Source: Nitrososphaerales archaeon TH5894 (GTDB lineage: Archaea; Thermoproteota; Nitrososphaeria; Nitrososphaerales; Nitrososphaeraceae). From it: DNA of 12,621 nucleotides. Positions within the stretch are counted from its first letter, which is position 1. Each line of letters starts with the position of its first letter. The stretch lies in the NCBI GenBank assembly GCA_014523485.1, contig JAATVK010000054.1, forward strand, positions 1 to 12,621. The letters run 5' to 3'. Below, one piece after another: positions 2,683 to 9,923 of the stretch. The notes beneath the pieces were generated by a model that saw only the letters and a list, made by a program, of their open reading frames with translations, was not told where the DNA came from and did not search any database. A program made the position numbers and the translations under genes.

Positions 2683-3069
2683 TCATGATATTGCAAGATC
2701 TTTAGTTTGTTCGATAAGGGTGTACAATTCATTTTTGTCTATGTTCTTGTCTATAGTAATATAATAAACTAATTCATCAATATAAAAACTAATAATATCC
2801 ACATTTTTATTAGAAATAAAAATGAATTCGGTTTCTCCTATGGATTTTTCATAGTTTTTTCGTATATTATAAATCATAGAATGAACAAACAATTCGTTCC
2901 TCATTTCTTCTGTTTTTAAAAAGGGAGTTAAACCAATTCTAAGTTGGCCTGCTATTGTTCTACCAAATTTATTTGTTACACCTACATAACGAATTTTAGG
3001 TGATAGTTCTAATATTTTTTTACAGTTTGTTTTATATTGAGCGTTTGATTTAGACAGATTCTCAGTCAT
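2683..3069 (-). CDS. DUF6659-like thaumarchaeal protein
   Basis: The 128-residue product resembles the small DUF6659 family that is abundant in ammonia-oxidising archaea, with the pattern KILELSPKIRYVGVTNKFGRT (18-38) and then GLTPFLKTEEMRNEL (46-60). No enzymatic motif is visible; family members look like single-domain, roadblock-like or PAS-like alpha/beta proteins, but no function is established to my knowledge. The frame stays open to 3114, yet the ATG at 3069 lies 25 bp from a TATA box and removes a hydrophobic, non-conserved 15-residue extension, so I prefer it. It follows the tfuA-like gene on the same strand with a 76-bp gap carrying its own promoter. It could be read with the YcaO-TfuA operon, but a role there is unproven. 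Confidence 0.75.
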   Translation of the reverse strand: MTENLSKSNAQYKTNCKKILELSPKIRYVGVTNKFGRTIAGQLRIGLTPFLKTEEMRNELFVHSMIYNIRKNYEKSIGETEFIFISNKNVDIISFYIDELVYYITIDKNIDKNELYTLIEQTKDLAIS

Positions 3070-3088
3070 ACTATAGATTACGAGGTAA

Positions 3089-3098
3089 GATATAAAAT
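3089..3098 (-). promoter_or_regulatory. TATA box of the DUF6659-like gene
   Basis: ATTTTATATC on the minus strand is centred about 25 bp before ATG 3069. It decides between the two possible ATG starts (3114 and 3069) and predicts a leaderless transcript independent of the upstream operon. Confidence 0.5.
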
Positions 3099-3145
3099 AG
3101 TTTTTGAAAAGCAATAGCCTGAGAAATAAAATTTAAATTTAATAA

Positions 3146-3802
3146 TTATGTTTTCGGTAATGATGATATATATTCAAGTGCTCGTATGGCATCTAACTCT
3201 TTTAGACTTACTTTATTAATAAAAATATAATTACTGAATCTTGAAATATATTTTTCTTTTGAAGGAAAAAAATGGAGAGATTTTTTGATTATATTCTCAT
3301 AACTCCGAAAAGGAAAGTAAATTCTCTTAGCTAAATTGACCATAGATTGCTTTGTTTCTTCATCAATTATTCCTTTTTTCCAGCATAAAAAAATATTATA
3401 TCTAATATCAATCATCGCTTCAGAAAGCAGATTATAATTGGAATCAAATGTTACTGCAATTTCATCATCTGAATTGATAATATTCTTTTTAAATAACTCA
3501 AAGATTTTCCCAATACCTTGCATTCCAAAATTTTCTAATTCTACTGCGCGTAATGCTCCAAGACTAGAGGCGCCATAAACTTTAAAGTTTTTATTCTTAA
3601 TAACTTGAAAAACTTCAATAGGAGAAGGGGGATACTCCTGAAGGAAAACTCCATCTATTAGAACAATATCTCTTCTTTCCGTTAATAGATTTAAATTTAT
3701 AAAGTCACCTTTTTTGGCTGGAGGTTTAAAGTCAGCGTCAATAATTTTTTTTGCTTTGTTTATTTCTAAAGAGGGCCCCAAATATATAATTGGTAAATTC
3801 AT
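3146..3802 (-). CDS. tfuA: TfuA-like protein, partner of YcaO
   Basis: TfuA proteins accompany YcaO enzymes and are needed for backbone thioamidation, probably by delivering sulfur. This 218-residue product has the whole TfuA core: YLGPSL (7-12), the PPAKKGDF segment (27-34), LIDGVF (48-53), the signature GASSLGALRAVEL (77-89) and DDEIAV (112-117). The region after about 150 is mostly helical and variable. Its ATG overlaps the ycaO stop (ATGA), indicating translational coupling and a fixed stoichiometry with YcaO. The methionine of the usual GASSMGALR motif is leucine here, a mild change. Molecular role is from the family; what it acts on here is unknown. Confidence 0.9.
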   Translation of the reverse strand: MNLPIIYLGPSLEINKAKKIIDADFKPPAKKGDFINLNLLTERRDIVLIDGVFLQEYPPSPIEVFQVIKNKNFKVYGASSLGALRAVELENFGMQGIGKIFELFKKNIINSDDEIAVTFDSNYNLLSEAMIDIRYNIFLCWKKGIIDEETKQSMVNLAKRIYFPFRSYENIIKKSLHFFPSKEKYISRFSNYIFINKVSLKELDAIRALEYISSLPKT

Positions 3803-5103
3803 TTAAAGGATCTCCTAGCTCTAAAGCCCATAACAGACTTCGATATTTTAAATGTCTCAAGACCAGGAACTATAGCTCTCACAACTGGAACATTTATTTT
3901 CGGATTTGTTAAATCGACTATTATAGCCTTGTTTAATCCTACTTCTTTAAAAAATTTTATAATAAGATTAATATCATCTAAAATATCTTCATTTTGATAA
4001 GTTATTATATCAGAAAAATTAATTGTCTTTTGTGAAGACATAAATTGCCATGCATTTTTATCATCTGTATTATTATAATTATAATGTATTTTCCTTAAAT
4101 CATCCCTGGCACCTTGAATGTTTGCTGCTCTTGTTTGAGAAACTTCGGTTATAGCTCTTAATATTGCAATTCTTTTATCTGGATGAGTACCATGTCCTTC
4201 AGCCAAATACCCATAGTCATGAGATATCCACTCAACACATGCAACGTTAAATGTGGGAATTTTAATATTTGTAGTGATATCCTTAATCATCAATTCAATA
4301 TTAAATTTTTTGAATTTATTTATTAATTTAGTTACTGGGAAAAAATTGTCTTCAGAAATTTTAACATCTGGGTATAGAGAATTGTCATCCAGAAAGTGTT
4401 CTTTGGAAATTGTGTTAATATGATATCCTTCTATTCTTAAATTTTGATATATTTTATACAAAATATGGAATGGAATTGCACTTGCCCGTAATTGAGCTAA
4501 GCTTATTGCATCTCTTTCAATAACTTCGCATAATGCATGACATACCGCTTCCTCAACAACGTTGCCGGATGCGAGTCCATTAGTATGATGAAATGCAAAA
4601 GGATTTAGAGAAGGTGGGTTTGGAGTATATCTAAATAATGCTAATGCTGCAGGAACCAAGATATTTTCCTTATTAATAATATCATAGCCTTCTACATAAT
4701 CCATTAACATATCATTTTGAAAATCAAAAGTTAATGGTTCAACTACCTCGTCAGGATGTAGAAGATTATACGAATGTTTGAGTTGATTAAAAGTTCCAGT
4801 AATAAATTTCCTAGAATAGTTGGTAGGTAAGGCAGAATATCGTTCAATGCTTTCCATAATTGCACTTACTTTTGCATGTTGTTTCGTAGGACCTTTTCCA
4901 CTATATACCCAAATATAATCTTCAGTACCGGGTAAAACACATGAATAATTAGGTATGTATAATTTATCCATATATGTAATATCGGCAATTCTAGTAAGCC
5001 CAATTTTTCTACTTATTTCTGAAACATGCATAAGTGTTTTTTCTACTGGCATAACTCTTGATGTGCCATTAAGAGTCCATTTTTTTTGACTTTGAAATAA
5101 CAA
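3799..5103 (-). CDS. ycaO: YcaO-domain cyclodehydratase/thioamidation protein
   Basis: YcaO enzymes use ATP to activate backbone amides, forming azolines or, with TfuA and a sulfur donor, thioamides. The 434-residue product spans the full domain. Its ATP/Mg-binding motifs are SAIMESIERYSA (80-91; E84, E87, R88), EEAVCHALCEVIERDA (184-199; E193, E196, R197, D198) and RAITEVSQTR (316-325; E320, Q323, R325). The C-terminus ends GLETFKISKSVMGFRARRSFK without the proline-rich tail of azoline-forming TOMM YcaOs, which favours a thioamidation-type role. The first in-frame start after an upstream stop is TTG 5103, and it keeps the conserved LNGTSRVMPVEKTL strand; ATG 5052 would remove it. It leads a two-gene operon with tfuA and is divergent from a small NHLP-like gene. 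The substrate is not known. Confidence 0.93.
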   Translation of the reverse strand: MLFQSQKKWTLNGTSRVMPVEKTLMHVSEISRKIGLTRIADITYMDKLYIPNYSCVLPGTEDYIWVYSGKGPTKQHAKVSAIMESIERYSALPTNYSRKFITGTFNQLKHSYNLLHPDEVVEPLTFDFQNDMLMDYVEGYDIINKENILVPAALALFRYTPNPPSLNPFAFHHTNGLASGNVVEEAVCHALCEVIERDAISLAQLRASAIPFHILYKIYQNLRIEGYHINTISKEHFLDDNSLYPDVKISEDNFFPVTKLINKFKKFNIELMIKDITTNIKIPTFNVACVEWISHDYGYLAEGHGTHPDKRIAILRAITEVSQTRAANIQGARDDLRKIHYNYNNTDDKNAWQFMSSQKTINFSDIITYQNEDILDDINLIIKFFKEVGLNKAIIVDLTNPKINVPVVRAIVPGLETFKISKSVMGFRARRSFK

Positions 5104-5113
5104 TATTTAAAAG

Positions 5114-5125
5114 TTATTTATAAAA
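5114..5125 (-). promoter_or_regulatory. Probable TATA box of ycaO-tfuA
   Basis: TTTTATAAATAA on the minus strand sits about 18 bp (centre) before TTG 5103, closer than the usual 25. The start of transcription may fall just inside the proposed coding region, or another box is used; the start assignment therefore keeps some doubt. Confidence 0.4.
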
Positions 5126-5165
5126 GTTCTTATCAATTTTACTAATTCCAAATTGTAACATTAAG

Positions 5166-5175
5166 ATTATATAAG
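5166..5175 (+). promoter_or_regulatory. TATA box of the NHLP-like gene, deciding a TTG start
   Basis: ATTATATAAG is centred about 29 bp before TTG 5200, placing transcription start at or close to that codon. Upstream in-frame TTG codons at 5182 and 5191 would lie before or at the start of the RNA, so the shorter product is preferred. Confidence 0.5.
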
Positions 5176-5199
5176 ACTTCATTGTTTTTTTTGTTTACA

Positions 5200-5376
5200 T
5201 TGATTTCGCGACAGAAAGAAGCAGAAATAATCAGTGAAATTCTGCTCAGGGCTGCAAGCGAACCTGACTTTAGAAATTTACTTATTAAAAATTCAGCGGA
5301 AATACTGGAAAAATATAATATTTCTAATGAAGCAAAATATATTATTAAGAAAAGTATAATTGATTTAACCCAGTAA
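5200..5376 (+). CDS. Small NHLP-clan-like peptide, candidate YcaO-TfuA substrate
   Basis: The 58-residue product (from TTG 5200; up to 64 from TTG 5182) reads as two or three amphipathic helices. The segment LRAASEPDFRNLLIKNSAEIL (16-36) has the A-x-x-D/E-P-x-F-R-x-x-L-L-x-N pattern of nitrile-hydratase-alpha-like leader (NHLP) RiPP precursors and of the small Os1348/Franean1_4349-type NHLP-clan proteins. The C-terminal third (YNISNEAKYIIKKSIIDLTQ) contains no cysteine at all, so azole formation from Cys is impossible; Ser47, Ser42 and Thr57, or a backbone thioamide, are the only conceivable YcaO products. It is divergent from ycaO-tfuA across 96 bp. The precursor role is inferred from context and leader resemblance; it could instead be a stand-alone helical protein. 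Confidence 0.7.
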   Translation: MISRQKEAEIISEILLRAASEPDFRNLLIKNSAEILEKYNISNEAKYIIKKSIIDLTQ

Positions 5377-5456
5377 TGGTCGATCTATTAATTCAAATTA
5401 TTATTCTTGATTTGCCAAGTTTTATTCGAAGTCCAATATAAAAAATTGATGTTGTC

Positions 5457-6729: not shown

Positions 6730-8397
6730 TTAACATTCAACCTTTAATACGGGTGATAAATTGAATTCAAAGGCTGATAAAGGAACGTGTAAATTGAATT
6801 TTGTAATCAAACCTGGGGTGACTTCTCCTATAAAGCCTATTGTTTTACTTTTATATATTATATCAGCACATCTCCCTTTTAAGAATAAATTATTATTATC
6901 ATTTCTCCTAGTTATAAGATTTTTACCAAAATTTATTTTAAAAATAGATTCTGCAATCGATTTAGCTTCTGTATAGTTAGAATTGTTAGATGCAATTAGA
7001 ACGCCTAAATTCCATTGTTCTACTATTTTATTTTTAAAACTAAATGTTTTTCCTATTTCAAATACTTTCTGAGGGTAATCCTCATGAACATTGTAGGAAA
7101 GATTATTTACCAAAGATGATAATATATTGGTTCTAAGAAATTCATGTTCTTTACTTTTGCTTTCTTTTACCTTAATTTTTTCAAGCACTTCTTTATCCTC
7201 GAAATTAAATATACTAGAAATGGTTCGATCTAACATGGTAAAATTCATCATCTCTAAAAATCCGAGCCCAGTCAGTGTCTCCTTTATCTCATCCATTTTT
7301 TTAAAATAGTGATTTTTTACCCCTGAAGTGATTAAAAATGACGGTATAGTAGATTTAATATTATCAATCCCATACCCTATTGCCACTTCTTCCACAATAT
7401 CTATAAAGCTGATAATATCGTTCCTATAAGGAGGAACTAGACATTTAATTTTTTTATTGTTTATTATTGAAGCATCTATTCGACATCTATTTAAAATTTG
7501 TATAAGCTTTTTAATTGATAGGTCTAATCCTAAATAGCTATTAATCATATTTGGATCAACTGAAATAGTATTATCTTTAAGAAGTTTCAATGAAGAAAAT
7601 GCAGATTTATCGTCATGTACGATTCCAGAAAAAATTTCATAACCTTCATCATAGAGATAATATGCAATGATAGCTAAAATACTCTTACATGTTTCTAAAT
7701 TTGTACCTGTTATTTCTATTACTAAATTACTAGTATTGTCATTTATTTTGGTCTTACTACTATTTATGATAGGGGGAAATGATAGAATTTGATTATTTCT
7801 ATCAGCGATAGTAGGATATAGATTAAAATTTTTTAATAAATTACTATATTTTTTTCCAGCCTCGAGATCAGACAATATTTCTTTTAATCTAAATGGTTTA
7901 GTTTGATCCAATGGTATAAATGATTCCTGTTGAGATTTTGTATTATAGATTAATGGAAATTCAATCTGATTAAGATCATGAATACCTATTGCAGCTTTTT
8001 TTCTGCCTCTGGCTATCCCATTATGAAGATCTTCTTGCATAGAAATTAATTGATTGAGAATAAAATTATTTATGTTAGTATTTTTAGCAACAAAAAACAA
8101 TAATATTGGTCTTATTTGCTTTACCTTCGGATCTATAGTTATTTGATATGATTTATCTGAAGAATATCTGAATGAAGGTAAACCTACTGTATTATTTAAT
8201 AATCCCTTTAGAGTTCTAAATATACCAGTATCACTTGAAAAGTCAGGACGATTAGGATTATATTCTACTCTTATTTTTGATTTATCTACTCCTTCAATAT
8301 CTAATCCAACAAATGGAAGCTTTCCTAATATTTCTTCAATTTGTTTATTGGGAAAAACACTTTTAATACGTGTCTTAAAGATATTTACTACTGGCAT
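6730..8397 (-). CDS. pheT: Phenylalanyl-tRNA synthetase beta subunit
   Basis: The product is the 555-residue beta subunit of the alpha2-beta2 PheRS, with the archaeal/eukaryotic architecture (no N-terminal EMAP/S4-like region of bacterial PheT). It starts MPVVNIFKTRIKSVFPNK, then VEYNPNRPDFSSDTGIFRTLKG (44-65), the B3/B4 editing region including RKKAAIGIHDL and IADRNNQILSFPPIINS (197-213), the B5 domain with VPPYRNDI and DIVEEVAIGYGIDNI (321-347), and a catalytic-like C-terminal domain. The B3/B4 domain normally removes mischarged tyrosine. The ATG overlaps the 3' end of pheS by 10 bp, so both are co-transcribed and coupled. Length is normal for archaea and no damage is seen. Confidence 0.97.
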   Translation of the reverse strand: MPVVNIFKTRIKSVFPNKQIEEILGKLPFVGLDIEGVDKSKIRVEYNPNRPDFSSDTGIFRTLKGLLNNTVGLPSFRYSSDKSYQITIDPKVKQIRPILLFFVAKNTNINNFILNQLISMQEDLHNGIARGRKKAAIGIHDLNQIEFPLIYNTKSQQESFIPLDQTKPFRLKEILSDLEAGKKYSNLLKNFNLYPTIADRNNQILSFPPIINSSKTKINDNTSNLVIEITGTNLETCKSILAIIAYYLYDEGYEIFSGIVHDDKSAFSSLKLLKDNTISVDPNMINSYLGLDLSIKKLIQILNRCRIDASIINNKKIKCLVPPYRNDIISFIDIVEEVAIGYGIDNIKSTIPSFLITSGVKNHYFKKMDEIKETLTGLGFLEMMNFTMLDRTISSIFNFEDKEVLEKIKVKESKSKEHEFLRTNILSSLVNNLSYNVHEDYPQKVFEIGKTFSFKNKIVEQWNLGVLIASNNSNYTEAKSIAESIFKINFGKNLITRRNDNNNLFLKGRCADIIYKSKTIGFIGEVTPGLITKFNLHVPLSAFEFNLSPVLKVEC

Positions 8398-9923
8398 TTA
8401 CTTAAACTCCGTAACCATCCAATTTTATTATTATATAATTCTCTTACATCTGAAATTTCATACTTTAACATCGCTATTCTCTCGATGCCTCCTCCCCATG
8501 CTAAAACAATATTTCTTATACCAAATGGTTGTACTACTTCTGGCCGAAGTATGCCCATCCCAAATAACTCAATCCATTTATTTAAATTACTGTTGAAGAT
8601 CATTGACTGTAGTGATGGTTCGGTATATGGAAAATAAGTTGGCCAAAATTTAATTTTTTTAATTCCAATCTTCTTATAGAATTCCGTTTGAATACCCATT
8701 AGGTCTCTTAAAGTTAGTTTCTTTCCTGTTATGACTCCCTCAATTTGATTAAATTCCACTAGATGTTTATATGAAACTTTTTCGTTTCTGAAAACACGTC
8801 CGATTGTAAATATTCTAGCTTCATCTGGTTTAGTTTCAGACAGATATTTCAATGTCACTGGCGTCGTATGGGTACGTAACACAGGTTTTTTTGCTATTTT
8901 GATATTCCAAGAATCCTTCCATCCAAGTATATGTGTATTAGCAATTTTTTTTATAAGGTTATTATTTCCTAATTTGGTTGTGATTTTCTCTGATAAATAA
9001 AAGGTATCCTGCATATCCCTAGCAGCATGATCTTGAGGGGTAAAGAGCGCATCAAAATTCCAAAAGGCTGATTGTATAAAATCACCATCAATTTCTACAA
9101 ATCCAAGACTTGTGAAGGCTTCACGAATCTCATTAATCAAATCTGTCAAAGGATGTTTTCTTCCTGGATTTGCCATGGCAACTTTGGCTTCGACGTCAAT
9201 GGGACGAAACGTCAAAGTCTTCCATTTTCCTGCTATTAAATGCTCTGGAACTAGTAGAGTAGTATTTTTATTTAATGGGAAGTTCTTATCATTTATATTT
9301 TTTATATCTACTTTAGTCTTGATCTTCTTTCCTAGTTCAGTAAGTGATACTTTTTCCTCATCTTTTTTAAACTTAATAAATTTAGGCCTTTTTACTAGTA
9401 ACTTAAGAACCTCTAACTCAGAGTTCGTTAAATCTACCTCTTTTAGTTTTTTAGATGAAAAAATTTTGTTCAATAACAACTCTTCACCACTTGCATTTTC
9501 AAAATTTTCTATTAGGTTAAAAGTTAATCCTTCTGTTTCAGAACTTGATATATTTATCCATTTATTAGATTTAGCCTTCGAAATCGCTATATTAATTTCA
9601 CTTTGCGTCAACGATCCTTTTTCTAATATTGTGCTAATAGTTGTATTGCCATTTCTTACAGCTCTTACTAATCTTCTTTCAGGTAGACCCTGTTCTATGG
9701 CATTTCTACCTAAATCATCTAATGTGATTAAAGTAGAAGGTTTGTTTGATTCGATTATATTTTTATATTTTAACCATTCTAATCCTCTTCTAATTTGGTC
9801 AAGATTAAGCGCACTCAATTCTATCAAATCAGTTAAAGAAATTTGAGATAAAGGATTTAACGAACTAATAATTTTTCTTTCGATTGGATGTAATTCTGCG
9901 AGATTAATTTGGGTGTTTTCCAA
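8388..9923 (-). CDS. pheS: Phenylalanyl-tRNA synthetase alpha subunit
   Basis: This 511-residue catalytic subunit charges tRNA-Phe. The N-terminal ~200 residues form winged-helix-like tRNA-binding modules typical of archaeal/eukaryotic PheRS (HPIERKIISSL; LTQSEINIAISKAKSNKWI). The class II core follows: HPLTDLINEIREAFTSLGF (257-275), RTHTTPVT (350-357), motif 2 GRVFRNEKVSYKHLVEFNQ (375-393), the Phe-pocket FWPTYFPYTEPS (426-437) and motif 3 WGGGIERIAML (476-486). The start is TTG 9923: no ATG precedes the conserved N-terminus, and a TATA-like TTTAAA lies about 25 bp upstream. It leads pheS-pheT and is head-to-head with trpS, sharing a 61-bp intergenic region with a strong palindrome. A long open frame on the opposite strand (9112-9846) is a coding shadow. 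Confidence 0.97.
   Translation of the reverse strand: MENTQINLAELHPIERKIISSLNPLSQISLTDLIELSALNLDQIRRGLEWLKYKNIIESNKPSTLITLDDLGRNAIEQGLPERRLVRAVRNGNTTISTILEKGSLTQSEINIAISKAKSNKWINISSSETEGLTFNLIENFENASGEELLLNKIFSSKKLKEVDLTNSELEVLKLLVKRPKFIKFKKDEEKVSLTELGKKIKTKVDIKNINDKNFPLNKNTTLLVPEHLIAGKWKTLTFRPIDVEAKVAMANPGRKHPLTDLINEIREAFTSLGFVEIDGDFIQSAFWNFDALFTPQDHAARDMQDTFYLSEKITTKLGNNNLIKKIANTHILGWKDSWNIKIAKKPVLRTHTTPVTLKYLSETKPDEARIFTIGRVFRNEKVSYKHLVEFNQIEGVITGKKLTLRDLMGIQTEFYKKIGIKKIKFWPTYFPYTEPSLQSMIFNSNLNKWIELFGMGILRPEVVQPFGIRNIVLAWGGGIERIAMLKYEISDVRELYNNKIGWLRSLSKCQ

Follow-up and report, generated by a model that had tools for sequence, protein, structure and literature searches.

The window analysed here, a 12,621-nt contig stretch from the draft genome (87.5% complete) of Nitrososphaerales archaeon TH5894, carries a ycaO gene and a tfuA gene that overlap by 4 bp (3799-3802), together with a small gene that is transcribed divergently from ycaO across an intergenic gap of 96 bp (Table 1). 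Recomputing the coordinates returned the layout given in the initial annotation of this stretch, namely a 4-bp ycaO-tfuA overlap facing a 58-codon gene 96 bp away. The subject of this analysis is the relation between the two enzymes, YcaO and TfuA, and the miniprotein encoded beside them.

Table 1. Positions of the ycaO-tfuA pair, the small gene and associated elements in the window.
Feature	Position	Strand	Description
ycaO	3799-5103	-	434 aa, TTG start; small-gene-associated clade; ~34-residue insertion; Pfam YcaO match
tfuA	3146-3802	-	218 aa; Pfam TfuA match
Small gene	5200-5376	+	58 codons; 58-aa NHLP/Os1348-like miniprotein without core
TATA-like box TTATATA	5167-5173	+	33 nt before the TTG start of the small gene
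YcaO insertion codons	4372-4479	-	Residues about 209-244; computed from residue numbers, edges approximate

Both enzymes belong to the families whose names they bear: YcaO matches the Pfam model PF02624 at 6.3e-72 (243.1 bits, cut-off 25.7), and TfuA matches PF07812 at 7.8e-35 (119.7 bits, cut-off 30) as well as PDB entry 6xp8 at 2e-27. Their best NCBIfam matches are the McrA-modifying models, and each falls under the equivalog cut-off (YcaO 296.7 versus 365 bits for TIGR03266; TfuA 202.4 versus 235.2 bits for NF033432). YcaO is likewise under the cut-off of TIGR03604, the model for azoline-forming (thiazole/oxazole-modified microcin, TOMM; SagD) enzymes, with 144.1 against 219.25. The proline-rich C-terminus that the initial annotation had reported missing is indeed absent, the sequence ending ...RARRSFK; this and the TfuA partner hint at a thioamide-forming YcaO, and as hints they are only suggestive. 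When an AlphaFold2 (AF2) model of YcaO (mean predicted local distance difference test score, pLDDT, 86.8) was compared with known structures by Foldseek, the best match was a methanogen YcaO bound to peptide, the M. jannaschii complex 6peu (2.9e-30). The tfuA gene adjoins ycaO in 38 of 38 loci, a count in which some regions, present in two collections, appear twice; it does so in 15 of another 16, the exception being a paralogue. Extra ycaO paralogues in g8 and g9 (loci L083, L180, L181 and L182) had no tfuA or small-gene match in the stretches fetched.

The small gene is a real gene. From a family alignment of 48 members we took 30, the window's included, for tests of selection and of the start codon. 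The median ratio of nonsynonymous to synonymous substitution rates (dN/dS) was 0.091 over 63 pairs at 70-98% identity, against 1.10, 0.21 and 2.15 in the three antisense frames, all of which contained stops. Differences at codon positions 1, 2 and 3 numbered 5257, 3582 and 12660 (383 pairs from the 30 members), and the frame is under purifying selection. The open reading frame (ORF) has two possible starts, TTG 5182 and TTG 5200, and ends at 5376. In all 30 members the nearest in-frame start is a TTG, at the same codon in 25 and one codon earlier in five, and a TATA-like box lies 24-34 nt upstream of that TTG in 30/30, as compared with 56 of 3000 positions drawn at random from these loci. TTG 5200 fits best as the start; TTG 5182 was rejected because it sits between the TATA-like box and the conserved start. 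The spacing of the box suggests that the transcript begins at or near the TTG and would thus be leaderless or nearly so. Codon-level selection, the conserved start and the promoter together reject a chance ORF. A promoter scan found no sigma-70-like site at 5050-5450, and a terminator-like hairpin followed by T lies at 5054-5076 (+), inside ycaO.

In order to see how regularly the small gene accompanies the pair, we surveyed 400 genomes of the order. We found ycaO in 76 and the small gene in 73, with both in 70, ycaO only in six, the small gene only in three and neither in 321; these genome counts are not phylogenetically independent events. The 73 small-gene genomes derive from a single-sequence search that also listed 73, from which G040 was dropped and to which G047 was added by profile, and when 280 genomes of the order were searched by profile, 73 again proved to have the small gene, every one of them in family f1, f2 or f3. 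Judged by score and long frame, hits in G040 (899 aa), G053 (467 aa), G086 (C1:387716) and G146 (C145) were rejected as chance matches. In a class-wide draw (ycaO in 53/300) there was no carrier outside the window's own order. Where both genes are present they lie within 2.5 kb of each other in 54 of 70 genomes, divergently in all 54, with a median gap of 123.5 bp that widens to 1.0-1.7 kb in five f2 genomes; in the other 16 (15 of g4 and one of g3) the two are widely separated or sit on two contigs, and in the closed single-contig genomes G056, G083 and G086 the record coordinates set them more than 0.9 Mb apart. The six genomes with ycaO only are two that encode McrA and four drafts. Thus, among the 74 McrA-free carriers, the small gene is within 2.5 kb of ycaO in 54, elsewhere in 16 and was not found in four drafts. 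It is therefore a near-constant companion of the pair where McrA is missing, and the absence beside most such pairs that the initial annotation had named as grounds for abandoning its proposal is not what we observed.

The distribution of McrA itself is nearly complementary. Only two of the 76 ycaO carriers, G037 and G053, encode McrA; neither has a credible small gene, and their YcaOs are about 36-37% identical to that of the window. McrA was not found in the window's draft genome nor in 73 of the 75 other carriers, with two methanogen controls positive. The initial annotation had stated that ammonia-oxidising archaea have no McrA; with none detected in 74 of the 76 carriers, we rejected McrA as the substrate. 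A phylum-wide draw of 398 genomes contained 36 with TfuA, 11 from the window's own order and 25 from families f27 and f56; all 25 of the latter encode McrA, and the small gene is in none of them. The 101 genomes with ycaO or TfuA comprise 70 in which the small gene occurs without McrA, 27 in which McrA occurs without a credible small gene, and four drafts that lack both; the two never occur together. This split between McrA and the miniprotein separates two YcaO-TfuA groups by their candidate substrate. A comparison with the neighbourhood of the McrA thioglycine gave no match in two McrA loci, and we conclude nothing from it. AmoA was found in 31 of the 33 small-gene carriers tested (not in the window's draft genome or in G188), in three of three f9 genomes without ycaO, in neither of two McrA genomes and in none of six others; the small-gene carriers look like ammonia oxidisers, but not every ammonia oxidiser is a carrier. 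Close relatives bear the names Nitrososphaeraceae and Nitrososphaerales, so that family f1 is very likely Nitrososphaeraceae, and we take f2 and f9, as a guess, to be Nitrosocaldaceae and Nitrosopumilaceae, respectively.

The McrA-associated system is among the closest known to the pair. According to excerpts of Nayak 2017 (PMC5589413), the McrA thioamide requires both ycaO and tfuA, with a chemistry drawn by analogy, and YcaO homologues of ammonia-oxidising archaea fall inside the archaeal YcaO clade. The presence of YcaO in ammonia oxidisers is hence already known from 2017, and the suggestion in the initial annotation of a modification system not described for such archaea has to be narrowed: what stands is that the excerpts name no substrate or partner for these YcaOs. 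Nor do they contain a miniprotein partner, an insertion or a partition between McrA and a miniprotein, a statement that concerns this paper and not the wider literature. Excerpts of PMC5797428 do not mention YcaO, TfuA, thioamid or thioglycine. The window's pair shares with the methanogen pair (TIGR03266/NF033432; PMC5589413, in the same excerpts) the two enzyme families and the overlapping ycaO-tfuA order, and differs from it in scoring under the equivalog cut-offs, in falling in a separate clade, in the insertion, in the miniprotein partner and in the lack of McrA in 74 of 76 carriers.

The separate clade is seen in a tree of 42 YcaO rows without euryarchaeal methanogens, whose rooting is therefore provisional. 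The 21 small-gene-type rows, including one g8 paralogue, form a clade of their own on a long stem (support 100/100), and the YcaOs of the two McrA-bearing order-mates group with f56 (100/97) inside the Mcr-type clade (96/95). Members of the small-gene clade also have in common an insertion of ~34 residues just after the ERD motif, found in all 20 that were aligned (a sample of the 74 carriers, with the paralogue set aside) and absent from 13 of 13 Mcr-type YcaOs and from seven of seven that bacteria encode in tfuA-bearing loci; one other bacterial row was excluded. In the YcaO model the insertion forms an extra helix (212-224) with blocks of pLDDT 71-86. Among the residues that both archaeal clades keep without change are E84, E87, E193, E196, R197, D198, R316, E320 and Q323, several of which bind ATP-Mg in the superfamily. 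Paralogue L083 carries the insertion as well. In G197 (C8:8470-9762), ycaO was matched in three pieces with stops next to an open small gene, which reflects either decay or assembly error.

Bacterial plasmid loci (Rhizobium, Azospirillum, Paracoccus and others) also hold ycaO and tfuA in one locus, as here. Their YcaOs are 24-31% identical in the 25 rows listed and lack the insertion in the seven aligned, and five small proteins encoded beside them are, by eye, unlike the archaeal miniprotein. On the plasmid pRlX4 of Rhizobium beringeri (L164), the YcaO-TfuA pair is clustered with a second YcaO, MoaD/ThiS, MoeB and a leader precursor annotated as Nif11-like, and the cluster is plausible as a thioamide locus for a ribosomally synthesized and post-translationally modified peptide (RiPP).

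The miniprotein resembles the nitrile hydratase leader peptide (NHLP) group far more clearly as a family than as one sequence. By itself the window's miniprotein matches the NHLP model TIGR03793 weakly (E 0.0092; 16.3 bits against a curated cut-off of 50.9) and finds nothing significant in the PDB. Across the 48 aligned members, NF038399, the Os1348 model, was matched at E<=0.1 by 47 (best 8.6e-7) and TIGR03793 by 44 (best 4.9e-5), and the family profile matches nitrile hydratase alpha (1v29) in the PDB at E 8.7e-8 over the whole chain, a value that sums two stretches of which the better alone gives 0.0025. Similarity to nitrile hydratase alpha, a hallmark of NHLP precursors, is thus a property of the family profile, and the NHLP-like leader pattern ascribed to this gene in the initial annotation is clear across the family and weak in the single sequence. 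In a scan of 16 genomes with NF038399 the small gene was matched in nine of 11 carriers, and the only other match, a 312-aa frame in G007 (C1:556644), was taken as chance; the best score was 21.9 bits against a curated cut-off of 40, so that Os1348, a bacterial NHLP-clan protein of Pseudomonas sp. Os17 (PDB 6lk7), has no match over the cut-off in those genomes. The AF2 model of the miniprotein has four helices (pLDDT 91.2). Its length is 55-64 aa in eight of nine ORFs listed, and the sequence is conserved to the end in most f1 members, with Q as last residue in 36 of the 44 rows having that column; the tail differs in f2, g5 and g8.

What the family lacks is the part of a precursor that becomes a product. 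In excerpts of Haft 2010 (PMC2887384), NHLP precursors have a Gly-Gly cleavage site followed by a hypervariable core. Unlike these precursors, with which it shares the nitrile hydratase alpha profile similarity and the weak family-wide model matches, the miniprotein has neither feature in any of the 48 aligned members, all of which end with the leader-like domain. With no Gly-Gly site, core or hypervariable tail, the idea of a RiPP precursor in the usual sense found no support, and we rejected a natural-product precursor with core because a core was present in none of the 48 members nor in the complete extra copies of g6. Such copies, one to two additional small genes per genome and none with a core, occur at g6 loci L173-L177; the L174 copy runs off the end of its contig, and the L176 copy is broken up over different frames.

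Judging from sequence comparisons, we give an even chance to a two-part system of ammonia oxidisers, in which a YcaO-TfuA lineage apart from the McrA-thioamidating pair would be matched with a dedicated helical miniprotein of the NHLP/Os1348 group as its candidate thioamidated substrate. YcaO would activate a backbone amide with ATP, sulphide would replace the oxygen, and TfuA would assist the sulphur donor, such that a backbone thioamide is put on the miniprotein itself. Recognition of the miniprotein would depend on its folded NHLP-like body, not on a cleavable leader, and the product would be a permanently modified small protein, not an exported peptide. More weakly, the insertion in YcaO may be the place where the miniprotein docks. 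We further propose, tentatively and with somewhat less than even confidence, that this could be a third kind of YcaO-TfuA system besides McrA thioamidation and peptide natural products, one in which a housekeeping miniprotein of NHLP fold permanently bears a backbone thioamide and its leader-like fold is kept as the functional modified product. The question of what YcaO-TfuA does in McrA-free ammonia oxidisers is thereby narrowed to one 58-residue protein; if the proposal is true, nitrifying archaea would hold a new class of thioamide-bearing protein that links RiPP-type leader recognition to archaeal protein modification.

Several observations weigh against this proposal. A leader-like domain without a core is an odd substrate, and no residue of the miniprotein stands out as the target: glycine is absent in 34 of the 48 miniproteins and cysteine in 40, so that the thioglycine site of McrA cannot simply be copied. 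As regards the NHLP/Os1348 group, NF038399 did not match the small gene in G032 or in the genome of the window itself, a Foldseek search of the miniprotein gave no significant match (best E 2.2), and in a second look designed helical bundles score level with Os1348. As for docking, the position of the insertion is its sole basis. The branches that the tree program marks as long include those of the small-gene clade and of the bacterial rows, which leaves the relation between these two unsure. With regard to co-occurrence, the small gene was not detected in the McrA-free carriers G113, G140, G213 and G234, two of which are given as 94 and 97% complete but consist of 520 and 720 contigs with ycaO less than 400 bp from a contig end, and it is present without ycaO in G062, G209 and G211 (67-72% complete). 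Finally, gain in one ancestor followed by few losses would give the same co-occurrence table.

A serious rival, if a somewhat unlikely one, holds that the miniprotein stays unmodified and acts as an in-trans leader, a docking or an allosteric subunit that brings an unlinked substrate to YcaO-TfuA. The miniprotein falls in the group of RiPP-precursor leader peptides, its sequence stops at the point where a core would follow, it has no conserved glycine or cysteine, and the YcaO insertion was found in no clade but that of the small gene, all of which would suit an adaptor. Copy numbers speak mildly for a substrate instead, as three g6 genomes (G185, G195 and G230) have extra small genes without extra ycaO and four g8 genomes (G128, G179, G205 and G207) have extra ycaO without extra small genes, unlike what a subunit in fixed ratio would require. 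In addition, no second substrate is known, none having been searched for genome-wide.

It is less probable still, and on balance improbable, that the miniprotein is a neighbour only, belonging to the same pathway or co-regulated without contacting YcaO-TfuA, and that the pair modifies another protein. A divergent promoter pair is a frequent arrangement in regulation, contact does not follow from co-inheritance alone, and a handful of further gene families also recurs close to ycaO or to the small gene, in two to four of 23 neighbourhoods. Yet both genes are retained in the 16 of 70 genomes where they are apart, and besides ycaO the most widely shared families across those neighbourhoods are tfuA (18/23) and the small gene (9/23, a figure from ORF clustering that chose the antisense frame in some loci).

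We regard it as very improbable that the pair is a relic, descended from McrA-thioamidating enzymes and kept for a minor role with the small gene incidental. In its favour, the tree puts the small-gene-type YcaOs closest to the Mcr-type ones, subject to the flagged long branches, and the window's proteins miss the McrA equivalog cut-offs by a modest margin; against a relic stand the retention of the residues invariant across both archaeal clades, the purifying selection on the small gene, the insertion common to 20 of 20 aligned YcaOs and the presence of ycaO in 66 of 70 f1 genomes listed. The most remote of the alternatives is that, as in pearlin-type pathways, which use NHLP-like scaffold peptides, amino acids are added to the C-terminus of the miniprotein, altered by YcaO-TfuA and released as a small molecule, a role that its near-constant length and conserved end would suit but to which the differing tails of f2, g5 and g8 are opposed, as is, weakly since no control genome was positive, the failure to find the PF04738 lantibiotic-dehydratase-type ligase in 12 of 12 genomes.

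Proteins related to one another, with a hydrophobic N-terminus and AWSE/AWTD-like repeats, are encoded near the small gene in f2 loci L078 (10545-11963), L086 (5329-6609) and L087 (11164-12561), and g4 locus L072 (6884-7366) has a weak match to them. Downstream of tfuA in the window lies a DUF6659-like gene (2683-3114, under the Pfam cut-off), which adjoins ycaO-tfuA in genus g1; in several g3/g4 loci without an adjacent small gene, it flanks ycaO at the opposite side (loci listed with the window: L008, L011, L019, L034, L071 and L076). Beyond the small gene lies pheT-pheS (6730-9923); pheT is not at that position in the compared g2, f2 and f3 loci, and recurs there in g1, g5, g6, g7, g8 and g9 loci. 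At 48-141 of the window, ARAGORN predicts a tRNA gene, anticodon undetermined, that perhaps contains an intron.

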